A program made the position numbers and the translations under genes. The notes under the pieces are model-generated. The model did no database searches. It had not been told where the DNA came from and was given only the letters and a program-made list of their open reading frames with translations. Positions 3,100-62,205 of a stretch of DNA of 64,000 nt are shown here, piece after piece. Each line of letters starts with the position of its first letter. The first letter of the stretch is position 1. The stretch is from Agrypnia vestita. Lineage: Eukaryota > Arthropoda > Insecta > Trichoptera > Phryganeidae. Where the stretch lies: the NCBI GenBank assembly GCA_016648135.1, contig JADDOH010010140.1, positions 1-64,000 on the forward strand, read 5' to 3'.

Positions 3100-4095
3100 A
3101 CACTATTTCTTAATTCGCACTAATAACGCTGGTATTATCGCTTAGATCACCTTCGAGATTATTCCGTACAATTTTCACCCGTAGGTACTTCGCCCGATAT
3201 ATATCACTCGGTTTAAAATACGCTGACCAAAATGTTTTCGCTACGGTTTATCGCTAGTAAGGGCGCGTTTCTATGTCGCACTTGTCAAACGTCAACAATG
3301 ACTGTGTCGCTGTAACCGGTCGACCCCATTCTATGGGTAATATCGCCTTTTCGAGGTTTACAGAGTTTGCGATAGTGGCCCATTCTTTTCAGTAGTGTTG
3401 TGGAGATTAGGATTCTAAAGATTACGACAGATTTGATAATGAGTAATTCCTTCTAATTCTACCATTTCGTTACAATATTTATAATTGATAAAATAAGAAT
3501 TGTTGGTTAGATTAAGAATGATTAATTAAGTAATTAATAATAATAAACATCGATATGTTTCTCTTATACGTGTTCATTTTGAGAAAATGGGGTTTAAAGT
3601 TTTTTATTCTCGTAATTTAAATAGAACTGTAAGCATTAAAAGTGATATTTTTGTATATCAACCGACAAAATATTATCGTTATCATATTTCTTATAACAAA
3701 ATAATCACACGTTAAAAAGTTTTTTCTTGCACTCAATTTAAAGAAAATTTAACAAACGAAAATGTATTACTTTTCATTGTAGAACAGTAATTGGAAGTCA
3801 CACAAGATTATACTTTAGTAGGTACATAGTAGAACTAACGATGTGCAAAAACATGACATCCTTAACTCAAAAACTGTTTTAAACTTTTTTTACTTTTATT
3901 ACTTTTTTTTACTTAAAAAAATTTTAAGTAAAAAAAAAGGTACACAAAATGAAGGACCCATATATCCGTATCCAAAGAAATATTTTTGCTTCATTGATTA
4001 GTTAGCAATTCCTTAACATCATGTATATACATTGCTCGCTTATCGTGTTCTAATTGTGACCTTAGTTCTAATGCAGCAACTAATCTAGTGCACCT
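3100..4095. other. AT-rich DNA downstream of the Penelope copy, no gene seen
   Basis: A moderately GC-rich stretch at 3130-3390 directly follows the Penelope terminal repeat and may be older Penelope-related or unique DNA. The rest is AT-rich with homopolymer runs and has no recognisable coding or RNA feature. Confidence 0.4.
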
Positions 4096-4101
4096 ATGTA
4101 C

Positions 4102-4161
4102 ATCATAGGACTACATGTAATCTAACAACGTAGTATATCATAGGACTACATGTAATCTAAC
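4102..4161. repeat. Two-copy tandem repeat, 35-bp period
   Basis: A 25-bp unit starting ATCATAGGACTACATG occurs at 4102-4126 and again, identical, at 4137-4161. Perfect identity suggests a recent local duplication. Confidence 0.8.
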
Positions 4162-4169
4162 GTATCATA

Positions 4170-5280
4170 AATATAAAGTCGTATAACAATAACAATCACT
4201 ACGATGCAATAATAACTTTGTGAATACTTCAGAAAGAAATTCAAAAGTATTAACAAAGTTGTTCAAAGTTGTTCATGTTGCAGTATAAAGTTTTTAGGTG
4301 CTCCCTAACCTATTACTTAACCCATAGGTTTAAATTGATTATACAATCGAGAAATACTTGGATGATATTGATTACAAATCATACACGTTGAGGTCATAAA
4401 AAAAATTAGAAAATAATCATAACGTCCTCATTAACATATTTCATGAAAGCTTCCTTGAATTCAAGAAAACTATTACCAAACTTGCGAAATTAGCTGTTTA
4501 GTCTCTTCGTTCAGTCTCACTATGTTTAAGCTCACTCTATAAAATCACTTTTTTTCTGTTCTTTCTTGTGTATGTTTTAGCCTATACTTTTTCTTTTTAT
4601 TTAAGTGATGAAAAGCATTTAAACTTATTGTATTATATTTGTATTACCTATATCATGTTATGAGTTTTTCATCGTTTGTGAACCATTCAAAAATAATTAA
4701 ATAAATCACCAATGGGACTACATTGAAGGAGATTAGAGAAAGTATAGTGTGCATGTGTTTCTGCCGAAAAAAGGTTCGATATTTTTTTTAGCACAAGAGT
4801 AGACTGTATGTGTGGTCTGAAATGACTGTATTCTCTTGCACTGTCTTCGTTTAACCATCTCATCTAAAGGTTAAATGAGATTTTGAAAATCTCTCATCAT
4901 CGGCACTATGTACACGCGTCGTGTTCAGCGCCAGGAAACTTGCGAAAGGAATTGGTAATGCCTCCACCGCCAGCGTGAGGGAGGGCCCCTCATGACATCT
5001 TGTGGTCTGCTGCGCCGCATCCAAGCCGGGGCCACCGCCCGCGCCTTAATGATCCCCGCCGCCTTTCAACCAGGCCTTCCCAATCGGACGATCGAGATTA
5101 CTTCGTGCCGTTGCATTTTTATTTATCAAATTGACACAAAATACACTGGCTAAATTACTTGTCGAGCGGGTGAGCACGCATTCTATTAAATAGGGTTATT
5201 CAAAATTATTAAAATGATGAACTGAATTTTATACCTCCATACTTTCTGAATTATAAGTGTTATTTAATTAATCTATATAT
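4170..5280. other. AT-rich DNA containing a GC-rich island (about 4895-5110)
   Basis: No gene is seen. At 4895-5110 the base composition changes abruptly to GC-rich, with CCTCCACCGCC- and GCCGCC-type runs, and then returns to AT-rich DNA. No long open frame crosses it. It may be a regulatory or conserved noncoding element, or the edge of an unrecognised exon. Confidence 0.35.
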
Positions 5281-7128: not shown

Positions 7129-7306
7129 CGGCCCTCGTAGTCAAGCGGGCATGACACTGGCTCCTCATACAGAGGTTCCGGGTTCGATTCCCGACGAGGT
7201 CACAATACATCTGTTTGATTAACTCAAGCCTGGAGTATTTTTGTGACGTGTTTCGATACAGTAATTGGGCCGCATGGCCTCTTGTAGCTTAACGAAAAAA
7301 AAAACG
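7129..7306 (+). mobile_element. tRNA-derived SINE
   Basis: The head (7131-7202) folds roughly as a tRNA: acceptor GCCCTCG pairs with CGAGGTC with one mismatch, the D stem GTCA/TGAC is perfect, and the B box reads GGTTCGATTCC. The anticodon arm is degenerate, so it is not a working tRNA. A body of about 90 bp follows, and the copy ends in an A-run near 7306. This is the layout of a Pol III-transcribed SINE. It abuts the right end of the CCGACAGCC element. Confidence 0.65.
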
Positions 7307-13175: not shown

Positions 13176-13179
13176 TCTA

Positions 13180-13415
13180 TTAACGTATATTATAGATATC
13201 TCAGAGAGACAAAACTGTATTTCTTATGGGAAAGTAGGTAGAGAAGTCATTTGGGTGTACATAGGATTTATGACCTATCTTTATGGTTGGCTTAAGTGAT
13301 CACTTTACACATAAAGATAGGTCATAAGTCCTATGTACACCCAAATGACTTCTATACCTAATTTCCCATAAGAAATACAGTTTCGTCTCTGTGAGATATC
13401 TATAATATACGTTAA
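13180..13415. mobile_element. Near-perfect long palindrome, family B (core AAGTGATCACTT)
   Basis: Arms 13180-13285 and 13310-13415 (106 bp each) are inverted copies with roughly a dozen differences and hardly any gap. The spacer holds the perfect 12-bp palindrome AAGTGATCACTT (13294-13305). Outer right sequence (to about 13490) carries a further family segment with AAATCCAGCACTGTTCTG. No coding content. Other members: 13505-13640, 14320-14519, 60740-61020. As RNA the whole unit would fold into a hairpin of about 100 bp. Confidence 0.8.
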
Positions 13416-13504
13416 TTGATTAATAATGTACCTGTGACATAAATCCAGCACTGTTCTGAAAGATTTGAACAAACTCAATATATTCTGAATATTTCTAAAT
13501 GAAA

Positions 13505-28613: not shown

Positions 28614-28686
28614 CGATCCTGCCAGGATTCGAACCTGGCATCTTCTGATCCGCAGTCAGACGTGTTATTCGTTGCGCCACAGGACC
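28614..28686 (-). tRNA. tRNA-Arg-like gene, anticodon GCG
   Basis: The 73-nt minus-strand sequence folds as a full cloverleaf. The acceptor GGTCCTG pairs with CAGGATC with one G-U pair; the anticodon stem TCTGA/TCAGA and T stem CCAGG/CCTGG are perfect; the B box GGTTCGAATCC and discriminator G are present. The body matches insect tRNA-Arg(ACG), but the loop CTGCGGA gives anticodon GCG, and the D stem has a C-A mismatch. Eukaryotes normally read CGN codons with A34, changed to inosine, so GCG is unusual. A run of at least 10 T directly follows the 3' end on the transcribed strand, a good Pol III terminator. It may be a variant gene or an early pseudogene. Confidence 0.85.
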
Positions 28687-30965: not shown

Positions 30966-31376
30966 GCATCTTGCCCGCGCAGCTTCGCACGCCTAGATTT
31001 TACTAACTTTTAGTCATGTTTTATCAATTTGTGTATAACCTAACCTAACCTTAACATATAAATATAAGTCGTCGCGAATTTTTTTTGAGAACTTTTTGAG
31101 TTCTACAACTTCTCTGTGCAAAGTATTTAAATATCTCTTAACGTTAAGGCAGCATTCATAAAAAACGCATCCCTCATCCATTTTTTGTCGACTTTAGTTG
31201 TAAAATAGGTCACTACGAAAATCCCTTTTATTTTAACGGGATAATATAAAGCCTTTGTCCACCCTGAGTCCACTCTAAATATTGGTGAAAGAATTTTTGA
31301 AATCGGATGAGTAGTTTCGGAGATTACCTCCTACATCCAAACTAACAAACTTTGCCTCTTTATATATTAGTATTGA
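30966..31376 (-). mobile_element. Helitron-like non-autonomous element, minus strand
   Basis: Read on the minus strand it begins TCAATACTAATATATAAAGA, close to the TCTATACTAATATTATAAAG start of the 53871 element, directly after an A. It ends in GCGTGCGAAGCTGCGCGGGC, almost the same GC-rich end as 47454, with the final CTAG decayed. It contains AACCTAACCTAACC (31029-31045), three partial insect telomere-type units. No open frame of note. Helitrons start with TC, end with CTRR after a hairpin and insert between A and T. Confidence 0.55.
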
Positions 31377-41519: not shown

Positions 41520-44500
41520 CATAAGTATGTATAAGTTATGTACACAGAAAATATATAACGAGTAACAAAACGGAAAGTGTGTCATCATATTCTCTTTGCC
41601 CTTGTGGAAATAACTCATATTGTATATTTTACATTTATTTTACAGTAAGTAACTTATATTGGAAGTTTTAAAAAATTAATTCCAGGAATTTTACTATGCG
41701 AAGAACCAATACCAATTTCCAACGATAGCCAAATGATTACAAATAATTCCTTTTTTTCTATTATTTTAGTTTTTTTCTGCGGAGGAGTCTTGACACTATT
41801 GGGAGGTATGTCGTACGTGGTATGCAATTTTTTTAATCCGAAAAAAATTACTTAAGTTGTAATTCTTACCATTCAAAAATATACATGTTAAACAAAGTTT
41901 CCATCGTAAGGCGCGAATCGCGAAAAAAATCTTAAATTCCTGTGATCATTACGGCTACCAATGACGACAGTATTTTTGTTTTAAGAATGAATTAAAACAA
42001 CTCCCTGATTTACCTGAACTTACCATAATACCTTTTTCCTTGAAATTAATTAAAATAATAAATTTTCAAAACATAATTAGGAATACATTTATCTGGTTTC
42101 GTAAGGAATAATAAATCTTTTGTCTCGAGATAGCGTCGTAAAACTTGAGTCCTGATAAGTTATCGTAATAAGCTGCGTAGGTAGACGTCGAGAGACACAC
42201 GCGAGTGTATCCACACACACACACACACACATCCATACCGCATGTACACATCATGTGTACCGTTGTTGGCAAAAATGAGAGGTCCTCCGACGCACACACG
42301 CACAGGTCCGCGGACGCACGCACACGCACGCACACCACAAGCGGTGTCGGGCGGGAAAATTAAAATTCTATAACGAGGTTTCCCTCCCCCGGCCCCGCGC
42401 CGCCGCCCCGGCCCTAAACCAACACGGACGTGTACATACAGCCGTGTAAAATGCGCGCCGATCAATACGGACGTCTTAAAGTACGGCTCTTAGTTAAGAA
42501 GAATAATAAGAAGGAGGAAAAGTACCGCTCACGCTCACACATACACACAAACATTCACACGTACGCAAATTCACGTATCATAAATTCAGCGGGGGCGAAT
42601 CACGGGGGCAGCTCGGAACGGGCGGACGGAGTTTTCCAAGAAAGGTTCATTTAAAAAGTTAACAACATTTTTATAACATTTTTGGATGTTAATTGGTTGC
42701 ACGTCATTTTAATACCTTACAAGAACATTTTTTTACAGTACAGAAATAAATAGACACTACTTACCTGTTTTAAGATATTTTATATAGACAGTATTTATAA
42801 TAATTCTCGATTCAAACAAAATGTGAATCACTCGAACATTATCTGTAGGCAAAAAAAAATTGAATGAGACTTTTGAAGCAATCCAAAAAAAATATGTCAC
42901 AAAAATACATTCACTGTTTTTTTTTTTTTTCATCAACAGCCCAATGGTACATTAAAAATATAATAAACAATTCCAAAGTAATTTATATGACTTATTACGT
43001 ATTTACACATACAACTTTCATCACTTTGTTACACAGTATTCCAGTGTCCTGAAATGCATCGTTCTCAAACTTTTAAAACACATAGGACCAGTTCTATTTT
43101 TTTTTTGTTTTAATAGTCTAAAAAATTGACATTCAAAATAAAACAATCGATATTCTTTATTTTATGTATCCTGTTATCATATTGAACATAATAAACATTT
43201 TCCCATCCCCGATAATAATAAATTCGAATATCCATCCATAACATCCTCTCCAATAGTTCAACTTAATCCGTTTTCAAAATTATTACAATTTAGAAATTGT
43301 TATTATATAAAATGAAAACATTCACTTTATATGCTTTTTAATAAAATACTCTGAATTAGATATTTTTGAATATTTAGATTTTTTAAATATTTTAGTTTAA
43401 TAAACATTAAAATCATTGAGTTCATCTATTACTATATCGCATATGTATGTCGTTGGTATGAATCATTAATCAAAATATATAATTCTCTAAGTTAAAATGT
43501 CCGTCACTAGCGCTAACAGATGGCTCAAATAATAATGAAGCATAATATAATAACGAGGTTTAAGAAGCTAAAAAAGGATAATTCTCTATTTAATAATATC
43601 CGTCACTAACGTTATCAAGACGCTGCGTTACTATAGATATCACTGTTCTCAGAGCTTTAATCGGTGGCCGAAATATATATATAGTAAAAGTACGTCATTT
43701 TTGAGGGGTTATAGCTATAGTTTGATGATAATATGAACTCACTTTTACGTGTGATCGATAAGTGGAAATATTAATTACTTGCCAATACCATACGCAAATA
43801 CTTGCTAATTACCAGCGCCTCCACAGTATTTTTATAATGAATATTGATTATTTTTATCATTAACGTGTTTTATTTTTATTATATATATATGACAGCAGTG
43901 AAAATAGTAATAAATATCGCATACGCTAATAATTTAACGATAAACAGTTGCAAAAATAATCGAGATTTTAAATATTCATCTTTTCTTTAATTGATGTTTT
44001 TAATGTTATAACTTAAATTCTGAAAATACACTTATCTTAAAAATATGTAAAAATTCTAAAAACACATCAATAACTAAAAAAATAATCATTTTTTTAACCC
44101 TTTGACCTTATGGTGTAATTGCAGACGCACATATACATTAAAACATTGGACGTAAAGAAAGATAGAAAAAGGGGACAACATCAGAAGGGGACAGAGAGCT
44201 CTGCTAAGAAATGTCGAGGGGGTGGGGTGGAGGCTGCGGAACCAGCGAGGGGGGAGAGGGGGAGGGTAGACGTGTTTTAAATTCCAATATTCATTAAACG
44301 TGTATTTCTATTGGAAGGCCGCTAATGAGTTGTCAGTCGGACGACGTCTTGCCGTACTCCAATATATTGCCTTCGGGTAAAGAGTTTTCCTCCGAGGGGT
44401 GGCGGGCGGGTGGTGGTGGGTTACGAGGGTAGGGGGAGGGGGTGTATTTATGTTCGCGAAGAGTGGAATCAATTTGAGCCGCCCAGTGGCGAATCAAAGG

Positions 44501-45504: not shown

Positions 45505-45720
45505 AAATTTACAACCAAATTAATTAATCAATTAGAAAGACATACAGAAAAATCTAATCCACGAAAAAATATTTGGCTACTACCGGGTAATTGGATGACG
45601 CGCCCGCCCCGGAAAGGAGGAGATCCGTGGTTCGAATCCCGGTAGTAACCAAATATTTTTTCGTAGATTAGATTTTTCTGTATGTCTTTCTAATTGATTA
45701 ATTAATTTGGTTTTAAATTT
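45505..45720. mobile_element. 216-bp near-perfect hairpin with a tRNA-like centre
   Basis: Arms 45505-45587 and 45638-45720 (83 bp each) are inverted copies with only about three differences. The arms include CTACTACCGGG, so the 50-bp centre plus the arm tips (45579-45645) reads like a shortened tRNA: acceptor ACTACCG/CGGTAGT perfect, T arm with GTGGTTCGAATCCCG, anticodon-like stem CCGCC/GGAGG, but a truncated D arm. AAATTTGGCTTTTC occurs just outside on both sides (45432-45445 and 45715-45728) as a possible 14-bp target duplication. The open frame across it is incidental. Confidence 0.75.
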
Positions 45721-45729
45721 GGCTTTTCG

Positions 45730-46950
45730 TTCAAAAATTATAATAATACAACATAAAAATAGAATATTTATATTATTGTAATAGAAAAATATAATAATAA
45801 ACTAACCTCCCTGTTCTCAAGATAACAATATCGCTATATTATCTTAACATTATAACATTGTACACTTCATCCATTCTGACGTGATGCCATTTGACAGATG
45901 TTTTGACATTAAATAATATACGATAATGATAATGACATACCTAAATAAGCACGTCCCGAGAATTTCGTCTGTTATACGACGTTATTTTTCTGAAATTAGG
46001 AGGATAATTGTCTTTTCTCAATTTTGAGGGTTAACACGTAACACATTTTTTGCAAAACATTATATTCGTGCTAATTGTTCAAGTTTGGCTACATCATGTT
46101 AGATCACTTCCTTTTTAGATAATAAACTTGCCGTGCACCCGTGAAAAATCACGGGAAATAATAATAGCAACTTGCCTTGCGTGACCGCGCAGCATATGCC
46201 ACGCGGTAACTGCGTATCGCTCTTATTATCTGATGTTTTAATTCCATCAATTTACGGACTTCACGATACACAGACATACAGACAGACAGACAACGAAATT
46301 ATTATGTTTGAATTATATTTTCTACATTAAAAAATAAGTTTTTCTAAAAATTTCTTTCTGTTAGTTAAATAACATCTTCCTCATAATTTATATAGCCGTT
46401 TATTCGGTGCAGTGTTTCATTCCAGAAAAACAATGTCTATCAATTGATCAATGTTGTAAAATGCAAATAATGACGGGAATAAAGTTTTAATTAGTCGCAC
46501 GGAGCACGTAGTGGAAGCCGTCGCATTGTGAGTCGCGGCCGTCCGCGCCGACGGAGCGCCACCGCGGGGAAAAGAGACAATAAAACATTTCCCGACAATG
46601 TAATGTACATAAATAATACATCTATCTATTCCTCTTCTATCTCTACTTATTCTTACACCGCCTCCACACTGTGACACGCTCCGCGCGGCGCTGCCGCCTT
46701 ATTAACACCGCTCGCCTCGTTCACATCCGGACACCTTTTCTTACGGAATAGGAGCCAGCGACCCCCACATTTACGTTACACTATCAAACCCGAAATATTT
46801 TCTGTAAATGTACACTATAGTAGAAAAGAAGGTTTGGATATTACATTTGAGCTCGGGGGATTTTGGCAGATAACAGGTAATACAGGTACAAAAAATGTAA
46901 GTAAAACGTTAAAATATAAGGTATCGGCTAATATTGATAAATAATGGCCC
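45730..46950. other. Noncoding DNA; GC-rich island at about 46495-46760
   Basis: 46110-46290 (CCCGTGAAAAATCACGGG hairpin, CAGACAGACAGACAACGAAA) is repeat DNA related in reverse to the GTCT/GTCC tracts at 35.9 and 36.5 kb. 46495-46760 is a GC-rich, non-coding-looking island. Confidence 0.4.
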
Positions 46951-47212
46951 GAATCAATTTATATATATATATATAAAAAGAAACCCGTGTTTCCCTACCC
47001 GCCAAGTTTTCTCCACAACCAGCCAAAACCATCCACCGGTGGTTGTGGTGGTGGATAGCCCTTGGTGTCACATCAAAAATATGCGAGTTTGGTGGGGGTG
47101 ACTGTCCGTGGGTGATGAAAATGTGCTTTCTAGCACATTGTTTTGTTATGGGAAGGCCGAAAATGCTTCAGATTGTTTCAAAATAGGCGCGCCGACTGTG
47201 TCGGTGAGTCTA

Positions 47213-47291
47213 GAAGGTTCCGGAAAAACCTGCTGTAGAAAGTTCTGGAAGGAGAAGGTTCTAGAGAATTCCCGAAAATTCAATAAGGTTC
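47213..47291. promoter_or_regulatory. Heat-shock-element cluster 1 inside the Helitron
   Basis: Perfect three-unit sites are GAAGGTTCCGGAA (47213-47225) and GAAAGTTCTGGAA (47238-47250). From 47254 an in-phase run follows: GAA 47254, TTC 47259, GAG 47264, TTC 47269, GAA 47274, TTC 47279, TAA 47284, TTC 47289. HSF trimers bind three or more alternating nGAAn pentamers, so this is a very strong predicted site. Confidence 0.7.
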
Positions 47292-47344
47292 TAAACTGAG
47301 CGGCGAAATGTGTCGGTCGAAAGGTTCCTGTACATTCGATAAAT

Positions 47345-47393
47345 TTCTTGAAAGTTCTGGAAGGAGAATGTTCTAGAAGGTTCGGTAAAGTTC
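47345..47393. promoter_or_regulatory. Heat-shock-element cluster 2 inside the Helitron
   Basis: In phase: TTC 47345, GAA 47350, TTC 47355, GAA 47360. After a 1-bp shift: GAA 47366, TTC 47371, GAA 47376, TTC 47381, TAA 47386, TTC 47391. Nine of ten pentamers are perfect. It is the second copy of the unit at 47238-47291. Confidence 0.7.
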
Positions 47394-47459
47394 TATGTTT
47401 ATCCAAACAGTGTACTAAAAATCAACGCGTGCGAGGCCGCGCGGGCACAGCTAGTAAAA

Positions 47460-48055
47460 TATATAAAATTCATATTTGGTACTGTAACATAAATGACACG
47501 TTTCTTTATAGAGATGCAGAGCGTCTGGCAGAAGAAATGACCCGCTAAAAGCGTCTGGAATGTCATGATAGGTCTTAGGCATGTTTTATATATTCTGACT
47601 TTGCTTTTCATTAACATATGGTTATTAGTCCATACAGCGTCTGCTGCATTTGTCTGCTCTTTGACTTAGTTATACAGATCACTGTATAACGAAGTCAATA
47701 ATGCATTCTCTTTCATTATTTACAACTTTTTAAAGTTGCGTTTAAAGCCAACATTTTAAAGTTTTTCGATGCCTCTGTTCGTATGAAAAACCATCCGGAC
47801 TTGACTCGAAAAATTCATCATTCCAACAAACAGAGATGTCGAAATTGTTCACTATTATCTATTTGAAATTCCATTTTGCATGCCTATTAAGGAAATTAAA
47901 TAACAAATGTAACGTAAAATATATTGTAGAGAAGAAAATTTTCTTTTAAATGAAGTTTATAATCTTTAACAATTTATTCAATATCTGAACCATCCACTTA
48001 CATAATAAAAGCTATGAGCAATATATTGTTCGATAAACCATTTTTCTCTGTACTT
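47460..48055. other. AT-rich DNA, no gene seen
   Basis: Contains TTGACTTAGTTATACAGATC...TGTATAACGAAGTCAA (about 47661-47698), a short imperfect inverted repeat. Nothing coding. Confidence 0.35.
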
Positions 48056-51858: not shown

Positions 51859-51915
51859 GAAGGTTCCAGAAAGAAACATTTTCTATAAAAACGAGCTCGA
51901 TATCGCTGTGCTTGA
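51859..51915 (+). promoter_or_regulatory. Candidate heat-shock-type promoter: perfect HSE plus TATA box
   Basis: GAAGGTTCCAGAA (51859-51871) is a perfect three-pentamer heat-shock element. Twelve bases later lies TATAAAAA (51884-51891). This spacing and order match compact insect heat-shock promoters and would predict initiation near 51915. No protein frame longer than about 60 codons follows, so a noncoding transcript, a short ORF or a chance match are all possible. It is 4.4 kb from the HSE-rich Helitron but not part of it. Confidence 0.4.
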
Positions 51916-61024: not shown

Positions 61025-62205
61025 ATTTTCTTCAAGTACTAATTTCAACTGACGAAGGGCAGAGTCATTATTATTATTAAAATGTTATTGATATTATTTC
61101 ATTCCTATCCATAAAATAAATAAAACATTAAAGAAACTATGTTCTACTTTGTTGTTATAATAAAAAAATATATTCGTCAGTGGCCGTTGTACAGTACCAT
61201 GAGTAAAAAAATCGAACCGTACTGGGCATTACTGATTATGACAATATTATTATGCCAACGTGTAATAATTTAGATTAATGTGAAATAGACTTAACTTTAA
61301 AAATATAAATGTAAAAATACACGTCACTAATGCGTGCCGAAGACACTTGTAATTGGGATAATGGGCATAGTATTCATTTATAATGTTTTGTTATTAAGAG
61401 TATCATGTACCCATTACCCTGTTAGTGTCTCTAATAAATATAAAACATAGAAAAAAAGTTGCGTTGCAGAATATTATGCCGAGTTCACACATGCGAGAAT
61501 CCTCGAGGCGGTCCTGCCTCCACTTGCCCGCGTACACAAGGCAAGGACGACAGATCCCCGCTTGTCTTAATCGGATTGTACAACGAATGAGAAATGGCGG
61601 AAGGGATGGAGCGCCGGGGGGCGGCGCGAGGCGGCGGGAAGGGGTAGGTCGGGGTGGGTCAGGGAGAGAAGAACGCGTAAAAGAAAAGATTCATCTGCGT
61701 ACATAGGTACCTACTTGTATTATATTTTCTTATTCCCTCAGAACGGTGGGTCTCTGGTAATTATGCACACGCCGCTGTATTGGTCGGGCGCTTTGTGGCA
61801 TAACAGGATGTTCGAATTTCGAATACGTCCTCGACTGAAAATTGTGCGTAAAAAAATTGCAAAACAAATTTAAGTATATTCTCTATCGAAATTTTACGCA
61901 CATTATACTCGATTATGTTCGCGAAACTTCCAGAAGTTCAGCACCTTATATGAATGCGCAGGGCGGGCGCGCGCGGCGAGCGAGTTGTCGTTTTGACAGA
62001 AGCCAAACCACAGAAGCGAAGCCGCAGAAAGCGAAACAGACGGCGCGCGATCGGCGCGATCCACAGACAAACGTTGCCACTAGGGTACCTCCTACGTGCG
62101 AAATTTTCTAGTGCGAACCTACGAGATACAAACGACGTGCCTCAGTATATCAGACAAGTGGAATAATTTAAGAAAAAATCCGATGTATGTTCAATAGTAT
62201 TCAGA
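61025..62205. other. Noncoding DNA with GC-rich islands at about 61480-61690 and 61960-62060
   Basis: Frames at 61425-61706, 61842-62111 and 61954-62166 are basic, low-complexity peptides typical of GC-rich noncoding DNA, with no domain. The 61.6-kb block is G-rich on the plus strand. Confidence 0.4.

Follow-up and report, generated by a model that had tools for sequence, protein, structure and literature searches.

How does a short mobile element come to be packed with phased heat-shock elements (HSEs), and what could such an array do for the element and for the genome that hosts it? The question is posed by a 501-bp segment of the window (the whole 64,000-nucleotide stretch of DNA analyzed here), for which a sequence-only reading had reported at least 19 GAA/TTC pentamers at 5-bp phase in two tandem units, lying between Helitron-type ends (a TC start, and CTAG followed by T). 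Both observations are borne out—the array by the triplet count, by shuffled controls and by a repeat pair inside the segment, and the ends by the flanks of the window copy and by the termini of other copies. HSF trimers bind alternating nGAAn pentamers, with longer runs bound cooperatively.

A non-coding element with Helitron-type ends

The window copy starts at T46954-C46955, directly after A46953, and closes on CTAG (47451-47454) ahead of T47455; its parts and the related features of the window are collected in Table 1. The 5' end reads TCAATATATA in most copies, and the predicted folding of 46954-46999, in part a TA palindrome, was better than that of all 200 shuffled sequences (z = -5.0). 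The stem predicted close to the 3' end (-7.3 kcal/mol) is a weak hairpin, with 54 of 200 shuffles folding equally well (z = -0.67). No terminal inverted repeats were found, as none of the six inverted pairs in 46700-47700 links the two ends of the element. A long coding frame is likewise missing: the overlapping stop-to-stop frames, considered from 50 codons upwards, reach at most 91 codons.

Table 1. Coordinates of the element, its parts and its paralogous empty site, in window positions.
Feature	Position	Strand	Basis
Non-autonomous Helitron-type element (501 bp, between A46953 and T47455)	46954..47454	+	Ends, flanks and genome matches
5' end TCAATTTATATATA..., then AAAAAGAAACCCGTGTTTCCC	46954..46999	+	Ends of copies and folding
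Tandem unit 1 (112 bp)	47198..47309	+	Repeat at 112 spacing; units in consensus
HSE, 3 units GAA-TTC-GAA	47213..47225	.	Triplet-chain scan
HSE, 3 units	47238..47250	.	Triplet-chain scan
Six-unit HSE in consensus; 2+3 units in window, third unit GAG	47254..47281	.	Chain scan and consensus
Tandem unit 2	47310..47404	+	Same repeat pair; units in consensus
HSE, 4 units TTC-GAA-TTC-GAA	47345..47362	.	Chain scan and consensus
Six-unit HSE in consensus; 4 units in window, fifth = TAA	47366..47393	.	Chain scan and consensus
GC-rich 3' subterminal segment, short predicted hairpin	47426..47445	+	Folding
3' terminal CTAG	47451..47454	+	Window flanks and copy ends
Paralogous empty site (repeat)	43430..43582	+	Matches joined flanks of copy L025 through the insertion point

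The termini of other copies follow the same rules. A scripted placement located the 5' end (TCA before a TA tract) in 21 of 30 copies, 19 of them after A and two after T; among the nine copies left unplaced by the script, several (L020, L024, L026 and L028) show AATCAATA by eye. At the 3' end, 26 of the 30 copies could be placed, all of them before T, with CTAG as the terminal motif in 21, GTAG in two, CAAG in two and CTGG in one. Beyond these ends, the flanks are unrelated among the aligned copies, except for copies found twice. A paralogous empty site is present within the window itself: the joined flanks of copy L025 align to 43430-43582 at 82% over 156 columns, unbroken at the join and with no target duplication, which shows that insertion took place between A and T without duplication of the target. 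By its ends and its mode of insertion, the segment at 46954-47454 is a non-coding, non-autonomous element of the Helitron type. Copies do land in genes, since L020 (1380-2012) begins about 60 bp beyond what appears to be the splice donor of an exon of the Vps34/PI3K59F type, for which the best match among solved structures is Drosophila PI3K 59F (E = 8.9e-98). An insect host is likely, in keeping with the Drosophila relative of this exon; it may be a butterfly or moth, as the sequence-only reading supposed and as would fit the type of ends.

Several other features were noted along the window. A 30-bp match (87%) to the 3' subterminal segment of the element, at 30972-31001 on the minus strand and possibly extending to 31365, is followed by a damaged end and is likely a remnant of another Helitron. 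Two MITE-like inverted repeats with 95-96% complementary arms are found at 13176-13419 (110-nt arms, 24 nt between them) and 45505-45720 (83-nt arms, 50 nt between them), and two tRNA-like matches, at 7131-7202 and 28614-28686, exceed the Rfam gathering score, one on each strand. A 3'-end form of lepidopteran Helitrons had no match in the 64-kb window with up to three mismatches allowed.

Phased heat-shock elements in the window copy and across the family

Within 47204-47393 of the window copy there are 26 GAA/TTC triplets, 19 of which stand in alternating 5-bp chains of at least two units. The sequence-only reading was right about the phased units, but these do not form one continuous array: phase breaks split them into five chains of 3, 3, 3, 4 and 4 units, starting at 47213, 47238, 47269, 47345 and 47366, respectively. 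Dinucleotide shuffles of this 190-bp stretch reached neither the observed number of phased units nor the number of chains of three or more (0 of 5000 in both cases), and yielded a four-unit chain five times in 5000; when the entire element was shuffled, the number of phased units was reached in 0 of 5000 and a four-unit chain in 1 of 5000. Each form of the three-unit pattern gives 10 matches in the 64-kb window, vs. an expected 0.85-0.99, and seven of the 10 lie within the element. The tandem duplication is most evident between 47238-47284 and 47350-47396, which are 112 bp apart and share 81% identity over 47 bp. Two HSEs outside the element sit in promoter-like settings: a three-unit HSE at 51859-51871 (GAAGGTTCCAGAA) precedes CTATAAAA by about 12 bases, and a four-unit HSE at 61918-61935 stands ahead of TTATATG and a GC-rich segment. 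The expected number of four-unit chains per 64-kb window is approximately 0.02.

The assembly containing the window (1,321,690,220 bases in 19,947 contigs) was searched with the full element, which returned 4141 first-look candidates; 40 of these were scored and all 40 matched, most of them up to query position 501. Because this query included the array, the second search used the HSE-free 5' part of the element (46976-47190), with 2512 first-look candidates and, again, 40 matches among 40 scored. All 30 loci from the latter search carry phased chains in their 3' half, a region that had no role in their choice; six of these 30, counting the window copy, duplicate loci found earlier or elsewhere. 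Removal of the repeats—L014 (with the flanks of L009), L028 (with the flanks of L026), L038, L040, L042, L043, L046 and L054—left 52 distinct copies out of 60 loci. The longest chain comprises at least four units in 51 of these copies, at least five in 42 and at least six in 36; none of the 52 lacks a chain of three or more, and the median is eight overlapping three-unit HSEs per copy. The sole copy below four units, L044, has kept one chain of three; roughly 1.2 kb from it lies another copy, truncated where the fetched locus ends, with chains of 3, 6, 4 and 6 units. A single-copy element, which the sequence-only reading had named as the contrary case, is incompatible with the two candidate counts and the uniformly matching scored loci; the search of the source genome that it had proposed revealed a large family with at least one phased HSE in every distinct copy examined. 

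Two of the repeated pairs, L009/L014 and L026/L028, each represent one insertion present on two contigs with nearly identical flanks. These pairs point to uncollapsed haplotypes in the assembly, so the raw counts are somewhat inflated. In L051 (1481-2759), the copy is split by an insertion of about 770 bp.

A majority consensus built from 29 copies (L014 was left out) contains chains of 3, 3, 6, 4 and 6 units, i.e., 22 units in all—a stronger array than that of the window copy, in which each of the six-unit chains has a changed unit (GAG in one and TAA in the other, for GAA in the consensus) and which is decayed relative to the consensus. Pairs of units in opposite orientation are found in the consensus at spacings of 5 (18 pairs), 11 (six pairs) and 15 (11 pairs), and none occur at spacings 3, 4, 6-10 or 12-14. 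The consensus spacing is that of HSE grammar, not of generic TTC/GAA richness.

Perfect six-unit HSEs were counted across the entire genome, with 8508 sites (overlapping matches included) against none for the reversed-pattern control and an expectation, from the triplet frequencies of the window, of at most about 0.15 per genome. The four-unit pattern was found 28,809 times vs. 78 for its control, and the same triplet model predicts about 200 (half of 396, as the pattern starts with GAA only). Among 50 listed six-unit sites, which are the first places in contig order and not a random draw, 35 match one of the element's two six-unit arrays exactly and 10 are one base off (45 of 50 within one base); all eight loci examined from this listing (L068-L075) match the element. 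The flanks in the fetched loci, 159,040 bases in total, contain seven chains of three units, three of four, one of five and three of six, and five of these 14 chains belong to the second copy in L044 and to the split copy in L051. Taking 8508 six-unit sites at no more than one per typical copy, we infer a total on the order of ten thousand copies. Searches beyond this genome with the 3'-end pattern of the element gave no stretches in viral contigs and none in prokaryote genome contigs; the HSE-array pattern returned seven stretches in viral contigs, with best matches of 20-24 bp confined to the array, and these were dismissed as chance or unrelated.

Drift of inserted copies and probable upkeep of the phase

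The median divergence of copies from the consensus is 3.2% outside CpG sites, and the changes fall on HSE core and spacer positions alike. In the copies chosen as best matches, 52 of 1888 core bases vs. 33 of 870 spacer bases are changed; the corresponding figures for copies chosen by their 5' part are 70 of 1407 vs. 40 of 647. L014 and L028 were still included in the 30-copy set of this comparison. Core and spacer divergence in ordinary copies is also similar within each base. Selection on inserted copies was accordingly rejected: ordinary copies drift neutrally after insertion and selection on them is not detectable. Since core and spacer drift at similar rates once a copy is in place, its phase is kept mainly by recent descent. 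The conservation of GAA/TTC across copies that had been anticipated is thus seen insofar as these positions are not the ones preferentially lost, but it reflects shared recent ancestry for the most part.

The evidence of selection is restricted to the internal duplication and to two diverged long arrays. Between the tandem units of the consensus, 35 of 36 core bases are identical, compared with 13 of 18 spacer bases within chains and 29 of 40 bases outside them (Fisher test for core vs. spacer, 0.013, or 0.015 with the other unit as the reference); such core/spacer p-values are descriptive only, as tandem units are not independent and the loci are not a random draw. The long arrays belong to L074 and L075, longer and diverged relatives with many tandem units that were taken from the six-unit listing; both had been chosen for holding a six-unit chain, and those stretches were excluded from the comparison. 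In L074, 23 HSE chains are spread along about 2.8 kb, a length that includes an insertion of about 1.2 kb. This insertion, which interrupts the long array at approximately 3200-4420 of the locus, has inverted TTAACCCTAGAAAG-type ends and, judging by them, is presumably piggyBac-like.

Across the aligned units of L074 and L075, identity outside CpG is 445/513 (87%) for the core, 169/246 (69%) for the spacer and 724/916 for other positions. For A, C and T, the core is better kept than either the spacer or the remaining array positions, whereas for G it (64/82) is above the spacer (80/109) but below those remaining positions (198/232). Sliding the core mask by one or two bases lowers the identity from 0.867 to 0.72-0.83, and nine of the 10 units have the core above the spacer, with one showing the opposite. 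Because the core is kept better than the spacer in the duplication and in both long arrays, the phase was probably upheld during the active period of the family, i.e., in its progenitor lineage—for which these comparisons constitute good, though not final, evidence.

A proposed role for HSF and the place of the family among known Helitrons

Taken as a whole, the findings describe a non-autonomous Helitron family, probably of an insect and perhaps of a butterfly or moth, with a dense HSE array as its 3' half, which is likely to be bound by HSF under stress and would thereby aid the spread of the element. HSF trimers would bind the arrays during stress, and the benefit to the element would have led to the retention of HSEs in the active lineage, possibly by opening chromatin or by driving transcription when stress relaxes silencing. 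The likeliest role would be that HSF binding aids transcription or replication of the element under stress, with heat-responsive neighbors arising as a side effect. With each insertion, a new locus would acquire a preformed HSF site; where a copy lies in an intron or close to a promoter, the neighboring gene could in some cases become heat-responsive, while most copies would be unselected after insertion and would decay.

The neutral drift of inserted copies would also be expected if the array were a passenger—an HSE-rich tandem repeat, e.g., from an hsp promoter, that was captured or amplified and then spread with no effect on transposition or on neighboring genes—and satellite-like tandem repeats have been reported on Helentrons in oyster (PMC7492417). 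The core is, however, better kept than the spacer both between the duplicated units and in the two diverged long arrays, and we hold this explanation to be unlikely. That the array sits in the 3' half, is at least partly present in every examined copy and is conserved above its spacers in the long relatives would be compatible with phased inverted pentamers serving as sites, or structural iterons, for the Rep/Hel protein of the element rather than for HSF; yet the grammar is of HSE type, with GAA and TTC alternating at 5 bp, which makes a Rep/Hel ligand quite improbable. Another factor with an inverted TTC/GAA site might be the true ligand, for example a STAT-type factor, as TTC...GAA half-sites resemble STAT sites. 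The two-base spacing within chains and the runs of up to six units are nevertheless those expected for HSF trimers, and the lack of opposite pairs at spacings 6-9 leaves a STAT-type factor with hardly any probability.

A precedent for the favored reading, HSF-assisted spread of a Helitron, exists in nematodes. Caenorhabditis Helitrons carry dense tandem HSEs (Hac-HSEs) in many copies, with HSE clusters as their hallmark (Garrigues et al. 2019, PMC6927752). Each of the 27 Caenorhabditis genomes studied there shows enrichment; among the UCSC genomes surveyed in that work, enrichment was confined to the three Caenorhabditis, and its authors suggested that the association of HSEs with Helitrons may be restricted to this genus. 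The Discussion of the same article proposes that HSF binding aids the Helitron under stress. The family described here resembles the Hac-HSEs of PMC6927752 in its dense clusters of nGAAn/nTTCn HSEs inside a many-copy element, and differs in its host and in being short and non-coding, with two perfect six-unit HSEs in the consensus. For the Hac-HSEs, HSF binding and heat induction have been demonstrated (PMC6927752), whereas for the present family both are predicted from its sequence.

Insect Helitrons offer a second point of comparison, by published description. Lep1 and Hel-2 are short non-autonomous Helitrons of Lepidoptera with 5'-TC and 3'-CTRR or CTAG ends, inserted between A and T (PMC4038834, PMC4344730); the present element shares with them its TC and CTAG ends, A/T insertion and small size, and differs in its HSE array, as none is described for them in the text consulted and the word 'heat' is absent from that of PMC4344730. 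The silkworm families BmHel-1 to -21 are likewise multi-copy lepidopteran Helitrons (PMC3789558), although the main text of that article contains none of the terms 'heat', 'promoter', 'tandem' or 'transcription factor'. The main text of PMC6927752, in turn, does not mention 'Lepidoptera', 'Bombyx', 'Heliconius' or 'insect', and no report of HSE-bearing Helitrons in insects was found among the listed titles and abstract openings of open-licence papers.

A more far-reaching possibility is that the family reshapes the whole heat-shock response, with some 8500 six-unit HSEs acting both as an HSF sink and as a supply of heat-inducible enhancers, in an independent counterpart, from another animal group, to the Caenorhabditis case that is upheld because HSF binding drives spread under heat. 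We regard this extension as doubtful; if true, the dispersed sink would set the threshold and the duration of the response. Thousands of perfect six-unit HSEs in a Helitron family of a probable insect suggest that the HSE-Helitron association has arisen again outside Caenorhabditis. The family thereby turns two matters into testable questions: whether recruitment of HSF as an aid to spread under stress is a recurrent feature of mobile elements, and whether heat responses are rewired in this way in ectotherms facing warming—and any assembled genome can be put to a simple test, in which six-unit HSEs are counted alongside matches to the reversed pattern.
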